The notes below the pieces were generated by a model, which saw only the letters and a list, made by a program, of their open reading frames with translations, was not told the origin of the DNA and ran no database searches. A DNA stretch of 64,000 bases. Origin: Streptomyces sp. SolWspMP-5a-2. Lineage in GTDB: Bacteria; Actinomycetota; Actinomycetes; Streptomycetales; Streptomycetaceae. Both the position numbers and the translations under genes were made by a program. The DNA lies in contig NZ_FMCI01000183.1 in assembly GCF_900091845.1 (NCBI RefSeq), forward strand, positions 1 through 64,000. Direction: 5' to 3'. Shown here piece after piece: positions 12,646-58,475 of this stretch (the stretch's first letter is position 1; each line of letters starts with the position of its first letter).

Positions 12646-12777
12646 GACGACCTCCTGCGCGCGGGACCGCATCGATGAGGCCCCGTCTATGTCCAACTAG
12701 TGAACTCTAAGCTGAGCCGTTCGGGTCGCCTCCCGTCAAGAGGTTGAACCGGATCGGGGGCGCGCGGCCCACGCGCG

Positions 12778-48759: not shown

Positions 48760-48831
48760 CCCATCATAGAGTCATCCCATGACTTGACGAGAATCACTGG
48801 ACATCGAGTCATGGGATGACTCTATGATGGG
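48760..48831. promoter_or_regulatory. GntR operator pair inside a 25-bp inverted repeat
   Basis: Perfect 25-base arms (48760-48784 and 48807-48831) flank a 22-base centre. Each arm contains a palindrome, AGTCATCCCATGACT (48770-48784) or its complement AGTCATGGGATGACT (48807-48821). Each also holds an outward TATGAT -10 element (48763-48768 minus strand, 48823-48828 plus strand). Confidence 0.75.
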
Positions 48832-48835
48832 TCCT

Positions 48836-50083
48836 ATGACGACGGATGAGGTCAACGAAAGCGCTCCGCGCCCTCCTGCGGACACGCCCCGCGCCCCACT
48901 GCGCGGCGTGCGTCGCACGGCCGTGGTGGCGCTGGTCCTGGCCGCCCTCAACCTGCGGCCCGGGGTCACCAGCCTCGGGCCGGTCCTGGAAGAGGTCCGG
49001 GACAGCCTGGACATGAGCGGTTCGGTGACCGGGCTGGTGACGTCCATCCCCGCCGTGTGTTTCGCGGTGGTCGGCTCGACGGCACCGCTGCTGGCCCGGC
49101 GTTTCGGGCCGAGCGGGGTCATCGCGGTCGCCGGCGCGGTCCTCGCCGTGGGCCTCGCCCTGCGCTCCTTCGCCCTCGACCCGATCCTCTTCGTCGTCCT
49201 GACGGCGCTGTCGCTGGCCGGTATCGCCGTCGCCAACGTGCTGCTGCCGATGGTCGTCAAACAGCGCTTCCCCGACCGGGTCGGCGCGATGACCGGCCTG
49301 TACTCGATGGCGCTGAACGTCGGCGCCTCCTCGGCGGCGGCGCTCACCGTGCCGCTGGCGCAGGCCTTCGGCGGTGACTGGCGGTACGGGCTGGGCGCCT
49401 GGTCGGTGCTGGCCGCGATGGCGGTGCCGCCCTGGCTGATCCTGGCCAGGCGCAGGACCGCGCATCCGGTGGGGCCCGTCGGCGGCGCGGTCGGTCCACC
49501 GGCGGCGACCGGCGGACGGCTCTCCCGTGACCCCACGGCCTGGGCGCTCACCGTGTACTTCGGGCTCCAGGCGAGCGCGGCCTACATCATCATCGGCTGG
49601 CTGCCACAGATCTTCCGCGACGCGGGACTGTCCGCCGGTACCGCCGGGTTGCTGTTCTCCGTGTCGTCCCTGCTCGGCGTCCCGCTGTCGCTCGCCCTGT
49701 CGGCCGTGGCCGGCAGACTGCGCCACCAGAGCGGCATCGCCGTCGCGATCGGCGCCTGCGGCCTCGCCGGATTCGGCGGGCTGTGGTTCGACCCCGCGGT
49801 CGCGCCCTGGCTCTGGGCGGTCCTGCTCGGCATCGCCAACTGCTCCTTCCCGCTGGCCCTGACGATGATCGGCATGCGGGGCCGCGACAGCGCCACCGTC
49901 GCCCGGCTCTCCGGGTTCGTGCAGAGCATCGGGTACGCCCTGTCCATCCCCGGGCCGCTCGTCGTCGGCGTCCTCTACGACCACACCGACGGCTGGCGGG
50001 CCCCCCTCACCTTCGTCCTGCTGCTGATCCTGGTCCAGATCGCGGTCGCCGTCCCCGCGGGCCGCGACCGCCAGATCGGCTGA
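48836..50083 (+). CDS. MFS transporter, CynX/NimT family
   Basis: A 415-residue transporter with twelve helices. LNLRPGVTSLGPVLEEV in helix 1 and FPDRVGAMTGLYSMALNVGAS in helix 5 are CynX/NimT-type signatures. These carriers export or import small anions or nitroimidazoles. The ATG at 48836 lies seven bases after the -10 TATGAT, so the mRNA is probably leaderless. The position directly before the NRPS cluster makes it a candidate for the exporter MinT of minimycin clusters, which is inference. An ATG four codons earlier lies inside the operator. Confidence 0.8.
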   Translation: MTTDEVNESAPRPPADTPRAPLRGVRRTAVVALVLAALNLRPGVTSLGPVLEEVRDSLDMSGSVTGLVTSIPAVCFAVVGSTAPLLARRFGPSGVIAVAGAVLAVGLALRSFALDPILFVVLTALSLAGIAVANVLLPMVVKQRFPDRVGAMTGLYSMALNVGASSAAALTVPLAQAFGGDWRYGLGAWSVLAAMAVPPWLILARRRTAHPVGPVGGAVGPPAATGGRLSRDPTAWALTVYFGLQASAAYIIIGWLPQIFRDAGLSAGTAGLLFSVSSLLGVPLSLALSAVAGRLRHQSGIAVAIGACGLAGFGGLWFDPAVAPWLWAVLLGIANCSFPLALTMIGMRGRDSATVARLSGFVQSIGYALSIPGPLVVGVLYDHTDGWRAPLTFVLLLILVQIAVAVPAGRDRQIG

Positions 50084-50214: not shown

Positions 50215-50471
50215 GGAAAAACGCTTCACAGAAACGAACCATCTCCCGCAATTCACCTTTCCTTTCTCATGGCATCTGACAGGAAATGGCTTAGGGAGAT
50301 AGCATGCGGTAACGCACGGATGTAGCGCACATCGGTTCTTCGTGCTAATTTTTCGCCGAACTGTGTGACACCCGCTCAGAACATCCGCGAGGATGCTGAA
50401 TCGAATCACAGGGTTCCGCTCGTACACCGCATGGGTCGCCACCCGCACTGGCCGACGAGCAATTCCGAGTA

Positions 50472-50530
50472 CCGCACCAGGAAAGAACGTTGAGTTCGGT
50501 GCGGTGTTCTTTCCCCGAAAAGAACACCGC
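50472..50530 (+). promoter_or_regulatory. Alternative hairpins in the NRPS leader
   Basis: CCGCACC (50472-50478) can pair with GGTGCGG (50498-50504). The overlapping GCGGTGTTCTTT (50501-50512) can instead pair with AAAGAACACCGC (50519-50530). The two hairpins exclude each other, as in an attenuator. They lie 34 bases before the NRPS start. Confidence 0.45.
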
Positions 50531-50563
50531 CCTCCCAAGACGCGGAAAAAGGAAACCCCTCTC

Positions 50564-53500
50564 ATGAACGTTGAAACCGCCCCCTGCTCTCGTCGCGCCC
50601 CCCACGGTCTCCCCGACCTGCTGCGCGAACAGGCGCAGGCCACCCCCCATCGGATCGCCGTCGTCCATGAACAACAGACCCTCACCTATGCCCAGTTGAC
50701 GGAGCGCTGCTCGCTCGTGGGAGCGCTCCTGCGACAGGCCGGAGTACGCCGGGACAGCCGGGTCGGCATCTTCATGGAGCCGTCCCTCGACCTCCTCACC
50801 GGCGTCTGGGGAATCCTCTGGGCCGGCGGCAGCTACGTGCCGCTCTCCCCGGAGTACCCGGAGGAGAGGATTGCGTACATGCTCGCCGACGCGGGCGTCG
50901 ACATCGTTATCACGCAGGAATTCCTGCGGTCGGCGCTCCAGGAACTGGCGCCCTCCGGGGTCCGCGTCCTCACCCTCGACGACGTGCCCTCCGAATCCGC
51001 TGCGGCGTCGCTCGGGGAGCCCGGTTCCGCGTTACTGGCGGAGCCCGATGTCAGGCCGGACGATCTCGCCTACGTCATCTACACCTCCGGCAGCACCGGA
51101 AAGCCCAAAGGCGTGATGGTCGAGCACCGCAGCATCGTCAGCCAGATGCGCTGGCTGCACGACGCCTGCGGAATCGACGCCAACGAGACCGTGCTCCAGA
51201 AGACCCCCATGAGTTTCGACGCCGCGCAATGGGAACTGCTGGCCGTCGCCTGCGGGAGCACCGTCGTGATGGGAGCCCCCGGCATCTACCGCGACCCCGA
51301 GGCCATCATCACGACGATCCAGCGGCACGGCGTCACCACCCTGCAGTGCGTGCCCACCCTGCTCCAGGCGCTCCTGGACACCGAGAAGTTCCCCGAATGC
51401 CGGTCTCTGCGCCGGGTGTTCAGCGGCGGCGAGGCGCTCTCCCGCAGCCTCGCCGCGCAGTGCCTGGACACCATGCCGGACGCCTCGCTGGTCAACCTCT
51501 ACGGGCCCACCGAGTGCACGATCAACGCGTCGTCGTTCACCGTGAACCGGGCCGCCCTCGCCGACGGGCCGCTGGTCATGCCGATCGGCACCCCGGTGAG
51601 CGACACCTCGCTGCACGTCCTCGGACCGGACGGCGGCCCCGTCCCGACCGGGGAGATCGGCGAGCTGTACATCGGCGGGACGCAGGTGGCGCGCGGTTAC
51701 CTCGGACGCCCCGACCTGACCGGCGAGCGGTTCGTGACCGACCGCTTCTCCGGCGATCCCGGCGCCCGCCTCTACCGGACCGGGGACCTCGCCCACGTCA
51801 ACGCGGACGGGACCGTGCAGTTCGTCGGACGCGCCGACAACCAGGTCAAGCTGCGCGGCTACCGGGTCGAGCTGGACGAGATACGGCAGACCGTCGAGAC
51901 GCACGACTGGGTGCGCGGCGCGGCCGTCCTGCTGCACGACGACGACGCCACCGGCTTCCAGAACCTCGTCGCGTTCGTCGAACTCAACCCGAAGGAAGCC
52001 GCCCTGATGGACCAGGGCAACCACGGCTCCCACCACCAGTCCAAGAGCAGCCGCCTCCAGGTCAGGGCCCAGCTCGCGCACCCCGGCCGCCGCGACGACG
52101 CCGACCTCGCGGGGCGTACCGCGGTGGACCTGCCCGGCGCCGAGGCCACCCCCGAGCAGCGGGCCCGCGCCTTCTCCCGCAAGACGTACCGCTTCTACGA
52201 GGGCGGCGCGGTGACCCGGGAGGACATCCTGCGCCTGCTCGGCCCGCGTCCGGCGCCGCGACCGGCGCCGCGCACCTCACCGGTCGTCGGCCTCGACGAA
52301 CTCGGCACCGTCCTGCGGGAGTTCGGACGCCACCTCAGCGACCAGCGGCTGCTGCCCAAGTACGCCTACGCCTCCCCCGGTTCGCTGTACGCGACGCAGC
52401 TGTACGTGGAGGTGGGACCCGGGCACGAGGTACCCGAGGGCGTCTACTACCACCACCCGCTCCACCACCGGCTGGTGCTCGTCGGGCCCGGCGTCGACAC
52501 CCCGCGGGCCCGGGTGCGGCTGCACTTCCTCGGCAAGCACAGCGCCATCGAGCCGGTCTACCGCAACAACATCCGCGAGGTCCTGGAGATCGAGGCGGGG
52601 CACATGGTCGGGCTCCTCGACGAGGTCCTGCCCGCCCACGGGCTGCGGGTCGCAGGCGCCGCCTACTGGCCCGAGGTGACCCGGCGTCTCGACTGCGCCC
52701 CCGACGACCACTACCTGGGCAGCTTCGACCTCCTCGCGGCCGAGCCGGGCGAGGCGGCCGCCGGGCCGGTGACCGACTCCCTCGACGTCTACGTGCAGGC
52801 CCACTCGGCCCGGATCGAGGGCCTCCCGCCGGGCCAGTACCGGTACACGGTCACCGCCGACGGCGCGGACCTGGTGCGGGTCGGGGACGAGGTGATCCTC
52901 AAGAAGCACGTCATCGCCATCAACCAACGGGTGTACGAGCGCTCCGACTTCGGCATCAGCCTGGTCGCCACCGGCTCCGCGCCCTGGCGCCACTACCTCG
53001 ACCTCGGCCGCGGTCTCCAGCGCCTCCAGATGAACGACCAGCGCCTCGGCTTCATGTCCTCGGGCTACAGCTCCAAGTCCGGCAACGACCTGCCGTCGGC
53101 CAAGCGGCTCGGCCGGATCCTCGCCGACCGCGAACTCCCCACCGGACCCTCCTACTTCTGCGTCGGCGGGCGGGTCTCCGAGGCGCAGTGGCACGGCGAG
53201 GACATGAAGGAGGACGTCGTCCACATGCAGGGGCCGGCCGAGCTGATCAAGGAGGACCTGGCCGCGCTGCTGCCCCGCTACATGCTGCCGAACCGGATCG
53301 TCGTCCTGGACAGCCTGCCCCAGACCGCCAACGGGAAGATCGACCTCAAGGCCCTCAAGGCCACCCACGAGTCGCACCTCGCGGTCGCCGAGCGGGCGTT
53401 CGTGGCGCCCCGCACGCCGGTCGAGCGGCGGATCCGGGACGTCTGGCAGGCGGTGCTCAAGCGGGACCAGGTCTCCGTCACCGACGACTTCTTCGAGCTG

Positions 53501-54730
53501 GGCGGCAACTCCCTGCTCGCCGTCGCGCTGGTCAGCCGCCTCAACGCGGACTTCGGCGGCGCGATCCCGCTGCAGATCCTCTTCGAGGCGCCCACGGTGG
53601 AACGGCTGGCGACCGCCCTGGAGGCGGCGTCGCCGCGGCCCGCGTCCCGTCTGGTGCCGCTCCAGCCCGAGGGCCGGGGCACCCCGCTCTACTGCTGGCC
53701 GGGGCTGGGCGGCTACCCGATGAACCTGCGCCCGCTGGCCGCGGCCCTCGGCACCGAGCGGCCCGTCCACGGGGTGCAGGCCCACGGCATCAACCCGGGC
53801 GAGGACCCCTACGACGACGTCCGGGCGATGGCCGCCGCCGATGTCGCGGCCATCCGCGAACTCCAGCCCCACGGGCCCTATCTGCTCTGCGGCTACTCCT
53901 TCGGGGCCCGGGTCGCGTTCGAGGCGGCCCGCCAGCTGGAGCAGGCGGGCGAGCGGGTGGAGCAGCTGTTCCTGGTGGCTCCCGGCCAGCCGCGGCTGCG
54001 CCCGGAGGACGCCGTCGGCGCGACCGGCCGGGCGGACTTCGCCGACCGCGCCTTCGTCGCCCTGCTCTTCTCGGTCTTCGCCGGGACGCTCAGCGGCCCG
54101 CTGCTCGACCGGTGCCTGGCCACCGTCACCGACGAGGACTCGTTCACCGGGTTCGTCACCGGGTCCTTCCCGGGTCTCGGCGCCGACCTGGTGCGGGCGG
54201 TGACCGGCATCGTGCGCCGCACCTACTCGCTCACCTACGAGTTCCACGAGCTGCGCGGACGCCGTCTCGACGCCCCGGTGACCCTCGTCAAGGCGCTGGA
54301 CGACAACTACTCGTTCATCGAGCACGAGGGCGGGTTCTCCGCCCGGCCGCCCGCGGTGCACGAACTGCGGTCCGGTCACTACGAGTTGCTGCGGGAGCCG
54401 CATGTCGCGCGGCTCGCCGCCGTGCTGAACGACCGGCTGCCCGCCGGTACCGGCACGTCCCCCGTTCACCACCAGCCGGCGCGAGCCACGGTCCAGGAGG
54501 TCGGAATGCCCCACATCAACATCAAGCACTTCCCGGTGTCGATCACCGCGGAGCAGGAACTGGAGCTGGTCGCCGCGGTGACCACGGCGGTGCGCAACGC
54601 GTTCGGCTGCGCCGAGGACGTCGTCTCCGTCGCCCTGGAGCCCGTCGCCCAGGACCTGTGGAACGAGCGGGTGTACATCCCGGAGATCGTCGACCGGCAG
54701 GAGCTGCTGCGCAAGACGCCCAACTACTGA
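50564..54730 (+). CDS. indC: Indigoidine synthetase-type NRPS (A-Ox-T-TE) with C-terminal tautomerase domain
   Basis: A 1388-residue single-module synthetase that would adenylate, oxidise and cyclise L-glutamine to the indigoidine (or minimycin) precursor. Order: adenylation with [13 protein letters not shown] (about 173-185) and NLYGPTECT (about 310); an FMN oxidase inserted in the A domain (about 570-860); A10 [12 protein letters not shown]; carrier LGGNSLLAV (Ser near 984); thioesterase GYSFGARV (about 1110). The frame then continues into a 74-residue 4-oxalocrotonate-tautomerase-like domain from Met1315. BpsA-type enzymes are about 1280 residues. Codon 157 is TTA (51032-51034), predicting bldA dependence. 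Confidence 0.93.
54495..54508 (+). promoter_or_regulatory. Internal Shine-Dalgarno and start for the tautomerase domain
   Basis: AGGAGG (54495-54500) lies five bases before an in-frame ATG (54506) followed by CCC. Initiation here would release a 74-residue protein that, after Met removal, starts with Pro, the catalytic residue of tautomerases. Confidence 0.55.
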
Positions 54731-54764: not shown

Positions 54765-55718
54765 ATGACTCTCTCCTCCCGCCGACACCCGCCGATTCCG
54801 CTGGTGTTCACCGACGAAGTGGCCGACGCGCTGGCCGCGGGCGACCCCGTGGTCGCCCTGGAGTCGAACGTCATCACGCACGGCCTGCCCTACCCCGACA
54901 ACGCCGCCACCGCCCGCAAGGTGGAGGACGCCGTGCGGGCCGGTGGCGCCGTGCCCGCCACCATCGGCATCGACGGCGGCCGCGTCCTGGTCGGCATGAC
55001 GGACGCCGACATCGAGCGCTTCGCCTCCACCCCCGGCATCCCCAAGGTCAGCAGCCGGGACCTGGCCGCCGTCCTCGCCTCCGGCGGCACCGGCGCCACC
55101 ACGGTCGCGTCCTCGCTTGTCGCCTCGGAACTGGCCGGCATCCCGTTCTTCTCCTCGGCCGGGATCGGCGGGGTCCACCGGGGCGCCGAGACCACCATGG
55201 ACATCTCCTCCGACCTGGTCCAGTTCACCCGCTCCCGGGTGGCGGTGGTCTGCGCCGGGGCGAAGAAGATCCTGGACCTCGGGCTGACCATGGAGTTCCT
55301 GGAGACCCACTGCGTGCCGGTCATCGCCCACGGCAGCGACGACTTCCCCGCCTTCTACTGCCGCTCCAGCGGGCTGCGCGCCCCGCAGCGCCTGGACGAC
55401 CCGGCCGCGATCGCCCGCGCCGTCGAGACGCACTGGGCGCTGGGCAACCCGGGCGGCGTCCTGATCACCAGCCCGACCCGGCCGGAGGACGCCATCGACG
55501 AGGACGACGTCGAGGCGGCCATCGCCGACGCGCTGCGCGGCGCTGCGGCGGACGGGGTGCGCGGCGGCGCCGTCACCAAGTACGTGATGCGCGCGGTGGA
55601 CCGCGCCACCGAGGGGCGCTCCGCGCGGGCCAACATGGCCGTGCTCGTCCACACCGCGCAGATCGGCGGCACGCTCGCCGCGGCCCACGCCCGACTCAAG
55701 CGAGAGGTGAACCAGTGA
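54765..55718 (+). CDS. indA: Pseudouridine-5'-phosphate glycosidase-like protein IndA
   Basis: A 317-residue PsuG/IndA-family C-glycosidase. [34 protein letters not shown] and [15 protein letters not shown] are the conserved blocks with Lys and Glu for ring opening of ribose-5-phosphate. In minimycin clusters the equivalent MinB joins ribose-5-phosphate by a C-C bond to the glutamine-derived heterocycle. AAGGA precedes the ATG. The stop overlaps the next start (GTGA). Confidence 0.93.
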
Positions 55719-57682
55719 CCACGGCCCTGACCCAGACCTTCCCGACGGCGACCGTGTCGCCCTCCGCCGCGGCCCCCTCCGCCGTGGTGACGGCGGAGCG
55801 GACGGCGCCGGTGCGGGTCGCCATGTTCGACCTGGACGGGACGCTCGTCGACTCGCCCCGCGCGATCGTGGAGGCGTTCACCGCGGCGTTCGAGGCGATG
55901 GGCCGCACGCCCGCCGACCCGGCGGCCGTCCGCGCCACCATCGGCCTGCCGCTGGAGCGGGCGTTCGCGCACCTGCTGGAGGTGGCGCAGGACGACCCGT
56001 CGGTCGCCGAGGGCGTCGCCCGCTACCAGGAGGCGTTCCGCACGGTCGTCCTCCCCCGCGCCCGGTCGCTGGTCTTCCCCGGGGTCGCCGAGGGCCTGGC
56101 CCGGCTGCGCGCCGAGGGCATCGTGGTGACGGTGGCGACGAGCAAGTTCCACGCCAGCGCCGACGCCCTGCTCACCGCCGCCGGTCTGATCGGGCACGTG
56201 ACGACGCTGGTGGGCGCCGACGACGTCGAACACCCCAAACCGCACCCGGAGTCGGGCCGGTTGATCCTGGGACGGCTCGATGCGCGGCCCGAGCACGCGG
56301 TGATGGTCGGCGACACCACCCACGACCTGAAGATGGCGACGGCGGCCGGTCTCGCGTCCGTCGCGGTCACCTACGGGGTGCACGGGCGCGCGGAGTTGGA
56401 GTCGGCGGCGCCGACCCACGTCGCCGACACGTTCCCGCAGGCCGTGGAGCAGATCCTCGCGGTGCTGCCGTCCGGCGGCTCCCCGGCCACCGGCGCGGTG
56501 GAGGACACCCGCACGGTGGAGGACCTCCTCGACGACAGCGCGTACCACATCGAGTTCAACGGGCACCTCACCAACCACATCAAGCACGCCGTCGTCGCCC
56601 TCGCCGGACTCGGTGTCGACCCCGGGCGGATCAGGGCGTACCACGACCACTACATCGCCCTCACCCCGTACGGCTGCCGGGTCGAGCCCGCCAGGGAGCC
56701 GCAGCGCGTCATCGACGAGGACAACTGGCTCGAACTCCTGGGCCAGCGAACGGACTTCGCCGCCTACGTCGCCTTCTTCGACGCCGAGGAGCGCAGACTG
56801 GGGACGGCGGGGATGGTGCGGCGGTACGTGCCGCGGCTCCTCGCGGGCTGGGCCGGGGCGCTCCAGCACGCGACCATCCACCTCGGCTGGGCGCTGGACG
56901 CGGGCAACCGCCGGATGGCCGTCGAGGGCATCGCCTACCTGGCCTTCGCGTACGTCGACTGCCACCCCGAGCGCGCCAGGCCCGCGGGGGCGGACGACAC
57001 CGGCCTGCCCCGGGAGTCGCTGCTGCGGATCGCCCGTCACTGGGAGGAGAACCAGCCAGGGCTCGGCGCGCGGATCGAGGAACTGGTCGCGGGCCGCAGC
57101 CCCGACATCCACCCCGAACTGATGCGCTCGGGGCTCCAGTACCGGATCGCCCGGATGCTCGGCGAGGGCCACCCGCTGATGTACGAGACGCCCGCGTGGG
57201 TCACCGAGCAGGACCCTGAGGAGAGTTGGGAGCAGCTCGCGCATCTCGTCACCGTCCTCTACCTGACCGAGCCGGGCGACTTCCTGCTGCTGCACCTGAT
57301 CACCGCGCTGCACGCCATGCGGCACATCGCGGACGTCCTGCCCGTCGAGGAGCGCCGCCGCGCGGTCGGCTGCTACTGGACCGGCATCCTCGGAGTGCTG
57401 TTCTCCCGCGGGCACTTCGTCGCCCCCGCGAAGCTGACGGCGATCGAGGGCCTCTTCGCCACCGCCACCGACGACGTCGACGACCCGCGCTGGGCCCGCG
57501 AGTGGGACTGGCACATCGCGCGGGCGGTGGAGGAGGAAGAGGAGCACAACGCCAAACTCGTCTACGTGATGCGCGAGTTGTGGCGCGGCTCGGGCGGCAG
57601 GTCGGTGTACCGGACGGCCGCGGGCCAGTTCACCAGCACACCCGAGCTGCCGCCGACGTTCGACCACCCCCCGACGGACTGA
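55715..57682 (+). CDS. indB: HAD phosphatase fused to DUF4243 (questin oxidase-like) domain, IndB
   Basis: A 655-residue two-domain protein. The N-terminal HAD phosphatase has [13 protein letters not shown] (about 34-46), VATSK, KPHPES and MVGDTTHD. From about residue 265 a DUF4243/questin-oxidase-like domain begins with [20 protein letters not shown] and runs to the end. In minimycin producers this fusion (MinC) dephosphorylates the nucleoside 5'-phosphate as part of self-protection. The DUF4243 domain belongs to a Baeyer-Villiger-type oxidase family. Co-translated with indA. Confidence 0.9.
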
Positions 57683-57734: not shown

Positions 57735-58475
57735 ATGACCACCGCCCTGCGCCCCGCGACCACGACGACGACCCCGACCGCGGCCACGCCCGCGCGGCAG
57801 ACCGAGGCACCGAGCGCCTACCAGCACCGTCTCGGGTCCGGCGTCCATCTGCTGCCGCAGACCGACCAGTTGCGCGCCCTGCACACCGTCGTCCGGGACC
57901 GTGACGCCCGCCGCGAGGACTTCGTCTTCTACGCCGGACGGATCATCCGGCTGCTGACCGAGGCGGCCCTGAACCTGCTGCCCTTCGAGCCGTACGAGGT
58001 GACGACGCCGGTCGGCCGCACCTACCGGGGCCTGCGCTTCGCCGACAACCTGGTCGGGGTGCCGATCGTGCGGGCCGGGGAGAGCATGGAGGCCGAGCTG
58101 CGGGCCGTCGTCCCCGGCATCAGGATCGGCAAGGTCCTCATCCAGCGCGACCGGACGACCAAGCAGCCGCGCCTCTACTACACGGCGTTCCCCGAGGACA
58201 TCGCCTCCCGCCAGGTCCTGCTGCTCGACCCGATGCTGGCGACCGGCGGCACCGCGCTGGCGGCGATCGAGGTCCTGCGCGACCTGGGCGTCCCGGAGGA
58301 GAACATCGTCTTCGTCACCTTCATCACCTGCCCCGAGGGCCTCGCGGCGGTCGGCGACCGCTACCCGGGGGTCAGGATCGTGACGTCGGCGATCGAGGAG
58401 GGCCTCAACGAGAACGCGTTCATGATGCCGGGGATCGGGGACTTCGGGGACCGGTACTTCGGGACGGACCGGTAG
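57735..58475 (+). CDS. upp: Uracil phosphoribosyltransferase, cluster-associated
   Basis: A 246-residue type I PRTase. The PRPP loop is LLLDPMLATGGTALAAIEVL and the uracil-binding end is PGIGDFGDRYFGT, both UPRTase hallmarks. It is longer than housekeeping Upp (about 210) through a Thr/Ala-rich N-terminus. Minimycin clusters carry such a gene (minD) as a self-resistance enzyme supplying competing UMP. AGGAG precedes the ATG; it ends the four-gene run. Confidence 0.92.
   Translation: MTTALRPATTTTTPTAATPARQTEAPSAYQHRLGSGVHLLPQTDQLRALHTVVRDRDARREDFVFYAGRIIRLLTEAALNLLPFEPYEVTTPVGRTYRGLRFADNLVGVPIVRAGESMEAELRAVVPGIRIGKVLIQRDRTTKQPRLYYTAFPEDIASRQVLLLDPMLATGGTALAAIEVLRDLGVPEENIVFVTFITCPEGLAAVGDRYPGVRIVTSAIEEGLNENAFMMPGIGDFGDRYFGTDR

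Follow-up and report, generated by a model that had tools for sequence, protein, structure and literature searches.

The window, by which we mean the whole stretch of 64,000 nucleotides of Streptomyces DNA that was analyzed, carries an NRPS gene of the indigoidine/minimycin type whose frame runs on into a tautomerase domain (Tau). This gene, its parts and its neighbors are as follows.

48824-50083, + strand: CynX/NimT-like MFS transporter upstream of the NRPS, candidate MinT (383.9 bits, under the cut-off of 406)
50564-54730, + strand: indigoidine/minimycin-type NRPS (A, presumed Ox, PCP, TE) with in-frame tautomerase domain (ORF list, start region, Pfam)
50621-51703, + strand: adenylation (A) domain PF00501 (Pfam, residues 20-380)
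53426-53620, + strand: carrier (PCP) domain PF00550 (Pfam, residues 955-1019)
53684-54448, + strand: thioesterase (TE) domain PF00975 (Pfam matches residues 1041-1143 only; the end is that of the structure model)
54449-54502, + strand: linker, model residues 268-285, predicted to be disordered (pLDDT <50 in the TE-Tau structure model) and containing the Shine-Dalgarno sequence (SD)
54495-54500, + strand: AGGAGG, SD of the putative internal start (sequence reading, duplex energy)
54506-54508, + strand: ATG, putative internal start codon; ATG, GTG or TTG in 43/43 fused loci, including that of the window (sequence, comparison)
54506-54730, + strand: tautomerase (Tau), PptA/YdcE-like, predicted to comprise 73 residues as a free protein that has lost its Met (Pfam, structure model, fold match)
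54509-54511, + strand: CCC, encoding the N-terminal proline (Pro1) shared by all 52 aligned Tau sequences (sequence, alignment)
54765-55718, + strand: IndA/MinB-like pseudouridine-5'-phosphate glycosidase (C-glycosynthase) (Pfam PF04227, E 1.7e-107)
55715-57682, + strand: MinC-like HAD phosphatase plus questin oxidase-like protein (Pfam)
57735-58475, + strand: MinD-like uracil phosphoribosyltransferase (Pfam)

The open reading frame of the NRPS-Tau gene is listed as 50393-54730. The gene probably begins at the ATG at 50564, which is preceded by AAAAAGGAAACCCCTCTC and whose SD, judged by eye, is weaker than the internal AGGAGG. According to Pfam, the A, PCP and TE domains form one module, as in the indigoidine/minimycin-type NRPSs IndC, BpsA and MinA, and the relative in Rhizobium rhizogenes K84 is annotated as indigoidine synthase. 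No Ox model was found among the Pfam matches of the NRPS, which leave a gap between the parts of the A domain. Given this gap and the architecture of the family, an Ox domain presumably lies inside the A domain. The Pfam matches also place MinB-, MinC- and MinD-like genes next to the minA-like NRPS, in that order, as in a minimycin cluster. The genes minB, minC and minD are named as minimycin genes in a section of the review PMC8724604, and the MinB, MinC and MinD neighbors described in passages of PMC3992020, PMC8724604, PMC5818174 and PMC12766979 resemble those of the window, as may the transporter.

On contig C87 (G000:C87:41-3262, L002), the same genome harbors another NRPS of the indigoidine type, alongside which an EamA-like transporter was recognized by eye. 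This paralogue ends in a TGA, and a separate tautomerase gene follows 23 bases on, behind GAAGGAG. The fused and the separate Tau of this genome are 51% identical.

At the junction in the window, the frame is free of stops from the thioesterase into the tautomerase and ends with the TGA at 54728-54730. The earlier note on this DNA had described such a continuation into a tautomerase-like domain, and both the open reading frame and the match to PF01361 bear this out. We also found the start signals that it had placed at the junction: AGGAGG at 54495-54500, a 5-nt spacer (TCGGA), ATG at 54506-54508 and CCC at 54509-54511. The free product had been given as 74 residues; this holds for the codons, Met included, and becomes 73 residues once Met is removed. 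The SD energy at this junction was -10.9 kcal/mol, and among the remaining in-frame codons of this gene's TE-Tau segment, a fraction of 0.000 had an equally strong value.

Tau (54506-54727) matched the Pfam family Tautomerase PF01361, the 4-OT subgroup of the tautomerase superfamily, with 28.4 bits (cut-off 22), and its structure model (pLDDT 96.9) showed the beta-alpha-beta fold. The best solved relative, by both sequence (E 2.7e-18) and fold (TM 0.89), was E. coli PptA (YdcE, 1gyj), which like the predicted free Tau (PHINIK) starts with Pro-His. However, the two proteins are 30% identical in the fold match and, unlike PptA, the Tau of the window is tied to an NRPS. Against the PptA equivalog NCBIfam NF002324, Tau scored 71.2 bits, below the curated cut-off of 83. 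The two arginines of 4-OT, R11 and R39, are not kept in the sequence of the window's Tau. Pro1 and His2 were invariant in 52 aligned Tau sequences, which represent a selection of the loci; the separate Tau L155, outside this alignment, has Pro-Ser. An N-terminal Pro is established as the catalytic residue of the tautomerase superfamily, as is also stated in passages of PMC5818174, where PptA (YdcE) is cited as the dimeric case. The Pro of Tau, invariant in the alignment, would stand at an N terminus only after initiation at the internal start.

The fusion itself is already known, and the earlier note was unaware that it had been published. Passages of PMC3992020 describe a tautomerase fused to IndC of S. 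chromofuscus, a tautomerase motif appended to indigoidine synthetase is mentioned in part of PMC5818174, and a section of the review PMC8724604 presents MinA with a Tau domain, its pathway scheme assigning the tautomerization to the tethered Tau. Fused and unfused versions are discussed in passages of PMC12766979, which leave the choice between fusion and excision undecided, and a section of PMC5014874 reports the tautomerase as a separate gene in Leisingera. As in the window, Tau follows the TE in S. chromofuscus IndC and in MinA; this likeness rests on the published descriptions, whereas the conservation of the start signals across fused relatives was found here. A word search of PMC12766979, PMC8724604, PMC3992020 and PMC5818174 returned no mention of an internal start at the NRPS-Tau junction. 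Similarly, our literature search found no paper linking indigoidine, an NRPS or a Streptomyces tautomerase with an internal translation start.

To compare junctions, we searched for Tau in sets of 392, 391, 394, 15, 393, 6 and 195 genomes, which overlap in part, and at the E-value limits of the sets we obtained matches in 41, 34, 11, 10, 23, 3 and 10 genomes, respectively. A plasmid search matched 40 records, 7 of which were examined. A scan of named genomes returned at least 80 loci, few of them of the Tau/NRPS family; among the matches listed in that scan, 8 of 80 loci covered the greater part of the query with an identity of at least 45%, and 5 of these had a Tau match. The 97 resulting Tau rows, among which L153 and L154 repeat L060 and L063, were classed by script into 43 fused in frame to the TE, defined by a stop-free linker between TE and Tau, and 54 others. 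After removal of near-copies, 29 fused representatives with less than 85% identity were retained.

Fused loci were found in Streptomyces, in a second actinomycete genus, on pCLA1 of S. clavuligerus, on an S. mirabilis plasmid, in Rhizobium rhizogenes K84, on a Rhizobium Ti plasmid and in a Neisseriaceae MAG. In S. clavuligerus ATCC 27064, the putative internal ATG lies at about NZ_CP027859.1:1,692,767. In about 40 other loci, including the paralogue in the genome of the window, the NRPS is followed by Tau as a gene of its own. Fused myxobacterial copies are reported in passages of PMC12766979; in the 195 genomes of the myxobacterial phylum, our search found no fused copy, and of its 10 matches, 5 were separate genes located behind an NRPS, while the other 5 had no NRPS hit in the flank examined. 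One Streptomyces locus (L016) is fused-like, but the reading frame of its TE is interrupted ahead of that of Tau, possibly through a sequencing error or decay of the gene; it was not counted as fused and is one of the 54. What follows an indigoidine-type NRPS in Microvirga vignae (L066:6480-6720) is no more than a Tau-like remnant that is broken, frame-shifted and interrupted by a stop. The fused NRPSs of K84 and the Ti plasmid (L166:1491-10519 and L167:1491-10519) share a gene row with a transporter, a cysteine synthase, a nickel permease, a phosphopantetheinyl transferase and a serine acetyltransferase, with no MinB match, hinting that this row makes another product. More generally, 25 of the 43 fused rows had a MinB match nearby, as did 21 of the 54 others, counted in short flanks; a link between fusion and nearby MinB was therefore not useful and was dropped.

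We then analyzed the codon preceding Pro. In all 43 fused loci it was a start codon (21 ATG, 18 GTG and 4 TTG), although these counts are not independent because the sequences are related. Among the 29 representatives, this was the sole column of 461 tested with 100% start codons; the next-best columns, at 97% and 93%, were both Met columns. The residue at the junction is a mixture of Met, Val and Leu, and all 18 Val rows use GTG and all 4 Leu rows TTG, whereas elsewhere in the fused genes GTG makes up 34% of Val codons and TTG 3% of Leu codons. In a clade-matched control, invariant Val columns were all GTG in 2/29, 3/26 and 1/21 cases and Leu columns all TTG in 0/38, giving a rough product of 1e-5 when the last fraction is taken as 1/39. 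On the tree, the junction codon changed at least seven times among fused rows, never leaving the start set. No fusion devoid of start signals was seen: the 11 weaker hits examined for such a case included none fused in frame to a TE, the TE lying in another frame in 8 (one of which, L177, has an unplaceable N terminus) and no TE being found in 3.

The SD was assessed as the best duplex with the 16S tail within the 14 bases at -18 to -5. The mean energy was -7.2 kcal/mol at the 29 junctions, indistinguishable from the -7.7 of the 51 starts of separate Tau genes (p 0.50), compared to -2.9 at 12,760 in-frame codons and likewise at 551 other in-frame NTG codons, the difference between junctions and these NTG codons being highly significant (p 1.8e-13). 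When the linkers were recoded with synonymous codons, the energy was -6.05 (sd 0.45), and only 1 of 300 runs was as low as the real value. A strict SD core (GGAGG, AAGGAG or AGGAG) was present in 24/43 fused and 28/53 separate Tau genes, and a lenient one (GGAG, GAGG, AGGA or AAGG) in 43/43 and 52/53. A Streptomyces clade of 12 loci (L017-L022 and L035-L040) has a weak AAAGG SD (-3.5 to -4.8 in 11 of the 12, -7.2 in L017), and 23 to 37% of its in-frame codons have an equally strong one. A start codon and an SD are thus kept inside the open reading frame beyond the needs of the protein, as in a gene with an internal start, with the SD being weak in this one clade.

The mRNA around the junction (-25 to +35) was within the weakest-structured 10% of its own gene in 27 of 29 rows. 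Part of this stems from the residues themselves. Compared to synonymous recoding, the mean z was 0.87, with 22 of 29 values positive and 7 below 0, and the average at 116 control positions was -0.11 (p ~1e-4). About 70% of the summed z came from the 9 representatives of the weak-SD clade, where the effect peaks; the gene of the window, which lies outside that clade, had a z of 1.88.

A tree of the TE was built without the Tau columns, leaving out L025, L027, L057, L066, L170, L172 and L016. On this tree the fused or separate state requires 6 changes, at least 3 of them forced by well supported branches, which does not support a single origin of the fusion. Within the sample, every member is fused in well supported clades of 4, 7 and 9 representatives. 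Moritella, with NRPS and Tau separate, is the tree sister of the fused Neisseriaceae MAG, which has AAGGAG before the ATG (L060:6400-6475, L064:1295-1360). Linker length and letters differ among fused relatives, and in the clade of the window the linker varies freely except for the last codons, which carry the SD and the start. Loss of a stop codon, as the earlier note had considered, fits as the evolutionary origin of the fusion, whereas the diversity of the fused clades speaks against a recent accident here; a sequencing error or recent stop loss confined to the window's genome was likewise rejected on the grounds that 43 loci carry the fusion. The stop between two neighboring genes was probably lost more than once, and the start signals of the second gene would have stayed under selection afterwards.

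Comparison of the sequences thus newly supports an internal start at the junction. Our preferred reading, with a probability of roughly 0.72, is that one gene would give two products, the whole NRPS with a tethered Tau and an internally started, free PptA-like tautomerase of 73 residues. This is in good agreement with the earlier note, which had proposed a fusion and a free enzyme from the same gene and had named as evidence to the contrary an extension shared by every homologue in which neither Met-Pro nor an SD is conserved. The extension is indeed common, and start codon and Pro are kept in 43/43 fused loci. Ribosomes starting at 50564 would make the whole NRPS, while others would initiate within the gene, at AGGAGG-ATG (54495-54508), and produce free Tau, from which methionine aminopeptidase would remove Met. 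Because this enzyme removes Met before Pro, only free Tau would offer the N-terminal Pro1 amine for catalysis. In the fusion the same nitrogen is an amide, as the earlier note had rightly implied in reserving the exposed Pro for the internal product. The best explanation for selection acting on the internal start is therefore that free Tau, with its Pro exposed, is required. The tethered Tau probably docks free Tau or is inactive. In the former case it would hold free subunits by the thioesterase through mixed dimers, and the cyclized glutamine product, the presumed substrate, would be tautomerized before it can couple to indigoidine. A role of Tau in diverting the cyclized glutamine product from indigoidine is described in a section of PMC8724604. 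Going further, we tentatively picture, somewhat against the odds, a self-docking assembly line in which a silent tethered Tau pairs with free catalytic subunits, initiation sets the split between indigoidine (untautomerized and self-coupling) and the C-nucleoside, and the arrangement arose several times by stop loss.

Several points stand against the dual-product reading: the weak SD of the 12-locus Streptomyces clade, the large share of that clade in the summed mRNA z, the 7 representatives with a z below 0, the relatedness of the sequences, the coverage of 7 of the 40 plasmid records, the separate Tau gene of the same genome, which could act in trans, and the scheme in PMC8724604, which in the section on MinA gives the step to the tethered Tau. 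This scheme favors a view that we consider unlikely, namely that the tethered Tau tautomerizes in cis although the nitrogen of its Pro1 forms an internal amide, and that the start signals are relics of a formerly separate gene. Whole sampled clades are fused, so the tether may indeed have a value. Relics, however, would decay, and Val and Leu columns elsewhere show mixed or different codons whereas the junction is GTG in 18/18 and TTG in 4/4 cases. Moreover, an acylated Pro cannot serve as the amine base that known members of the tautomerase superfamily use. We regard as equally improbable that stop loss merely left behind a fusion that is neutral or slightly deleterious, and that all function resides in the free, internally started Tau. 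The linker, which is predicted to be disordered and is poorly conserved, and the separate arrangement in some 40 loci would fit this explanation, and the stop-free linker is no evidence against it because "fused" was so defined; it is the supported clades of 4, 7 and 9 representatives with no separate member that argue against it.

The remaining explanations dispense with initiation. According to some authors, ribosomes slow down at SD-like stretches within coding sequences, and the purine-rich run could have been kept as a pausing site that lets the TE fold before Tau. This is very improbable, as it leaves unexplained both the constant ATG, GTG or TTG after the run and the weak mRNA structure around it. 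Release of free Tau by proteolysis at the junction, for which the predicted disorder of the linker would be suitable, is more improbable still: a protease needs neither start codons nor an SD, and the residues directly before Pro vary between clades.

If the dual-product reading is correct, the gene would join bacterial genes with internal in-frame starts that yield long and short isoforms, such as those for IF2 and CheA. Like these, it is predicted to give a shorter C-terminal isoform from an SD and start codon within the gene. Unlike in IF2 and CheA, a catalytic residue hidden within the long form would become the exposed N terminus of the short form, and the internal start would have come about when two genes fused. 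The description of MinA and IndC as enzymes with a working cis Tau domain would then need revision, and expressing recoded versions of such genes may silently delete an enzyme. The branch between the blue pigment and the C-nucleoside antibiotic would become testable by silent mutations. Overall, the family would provide a clean example of a fusion that is tolerated when the second protein, in need of a free N terminus, keeps its own start.
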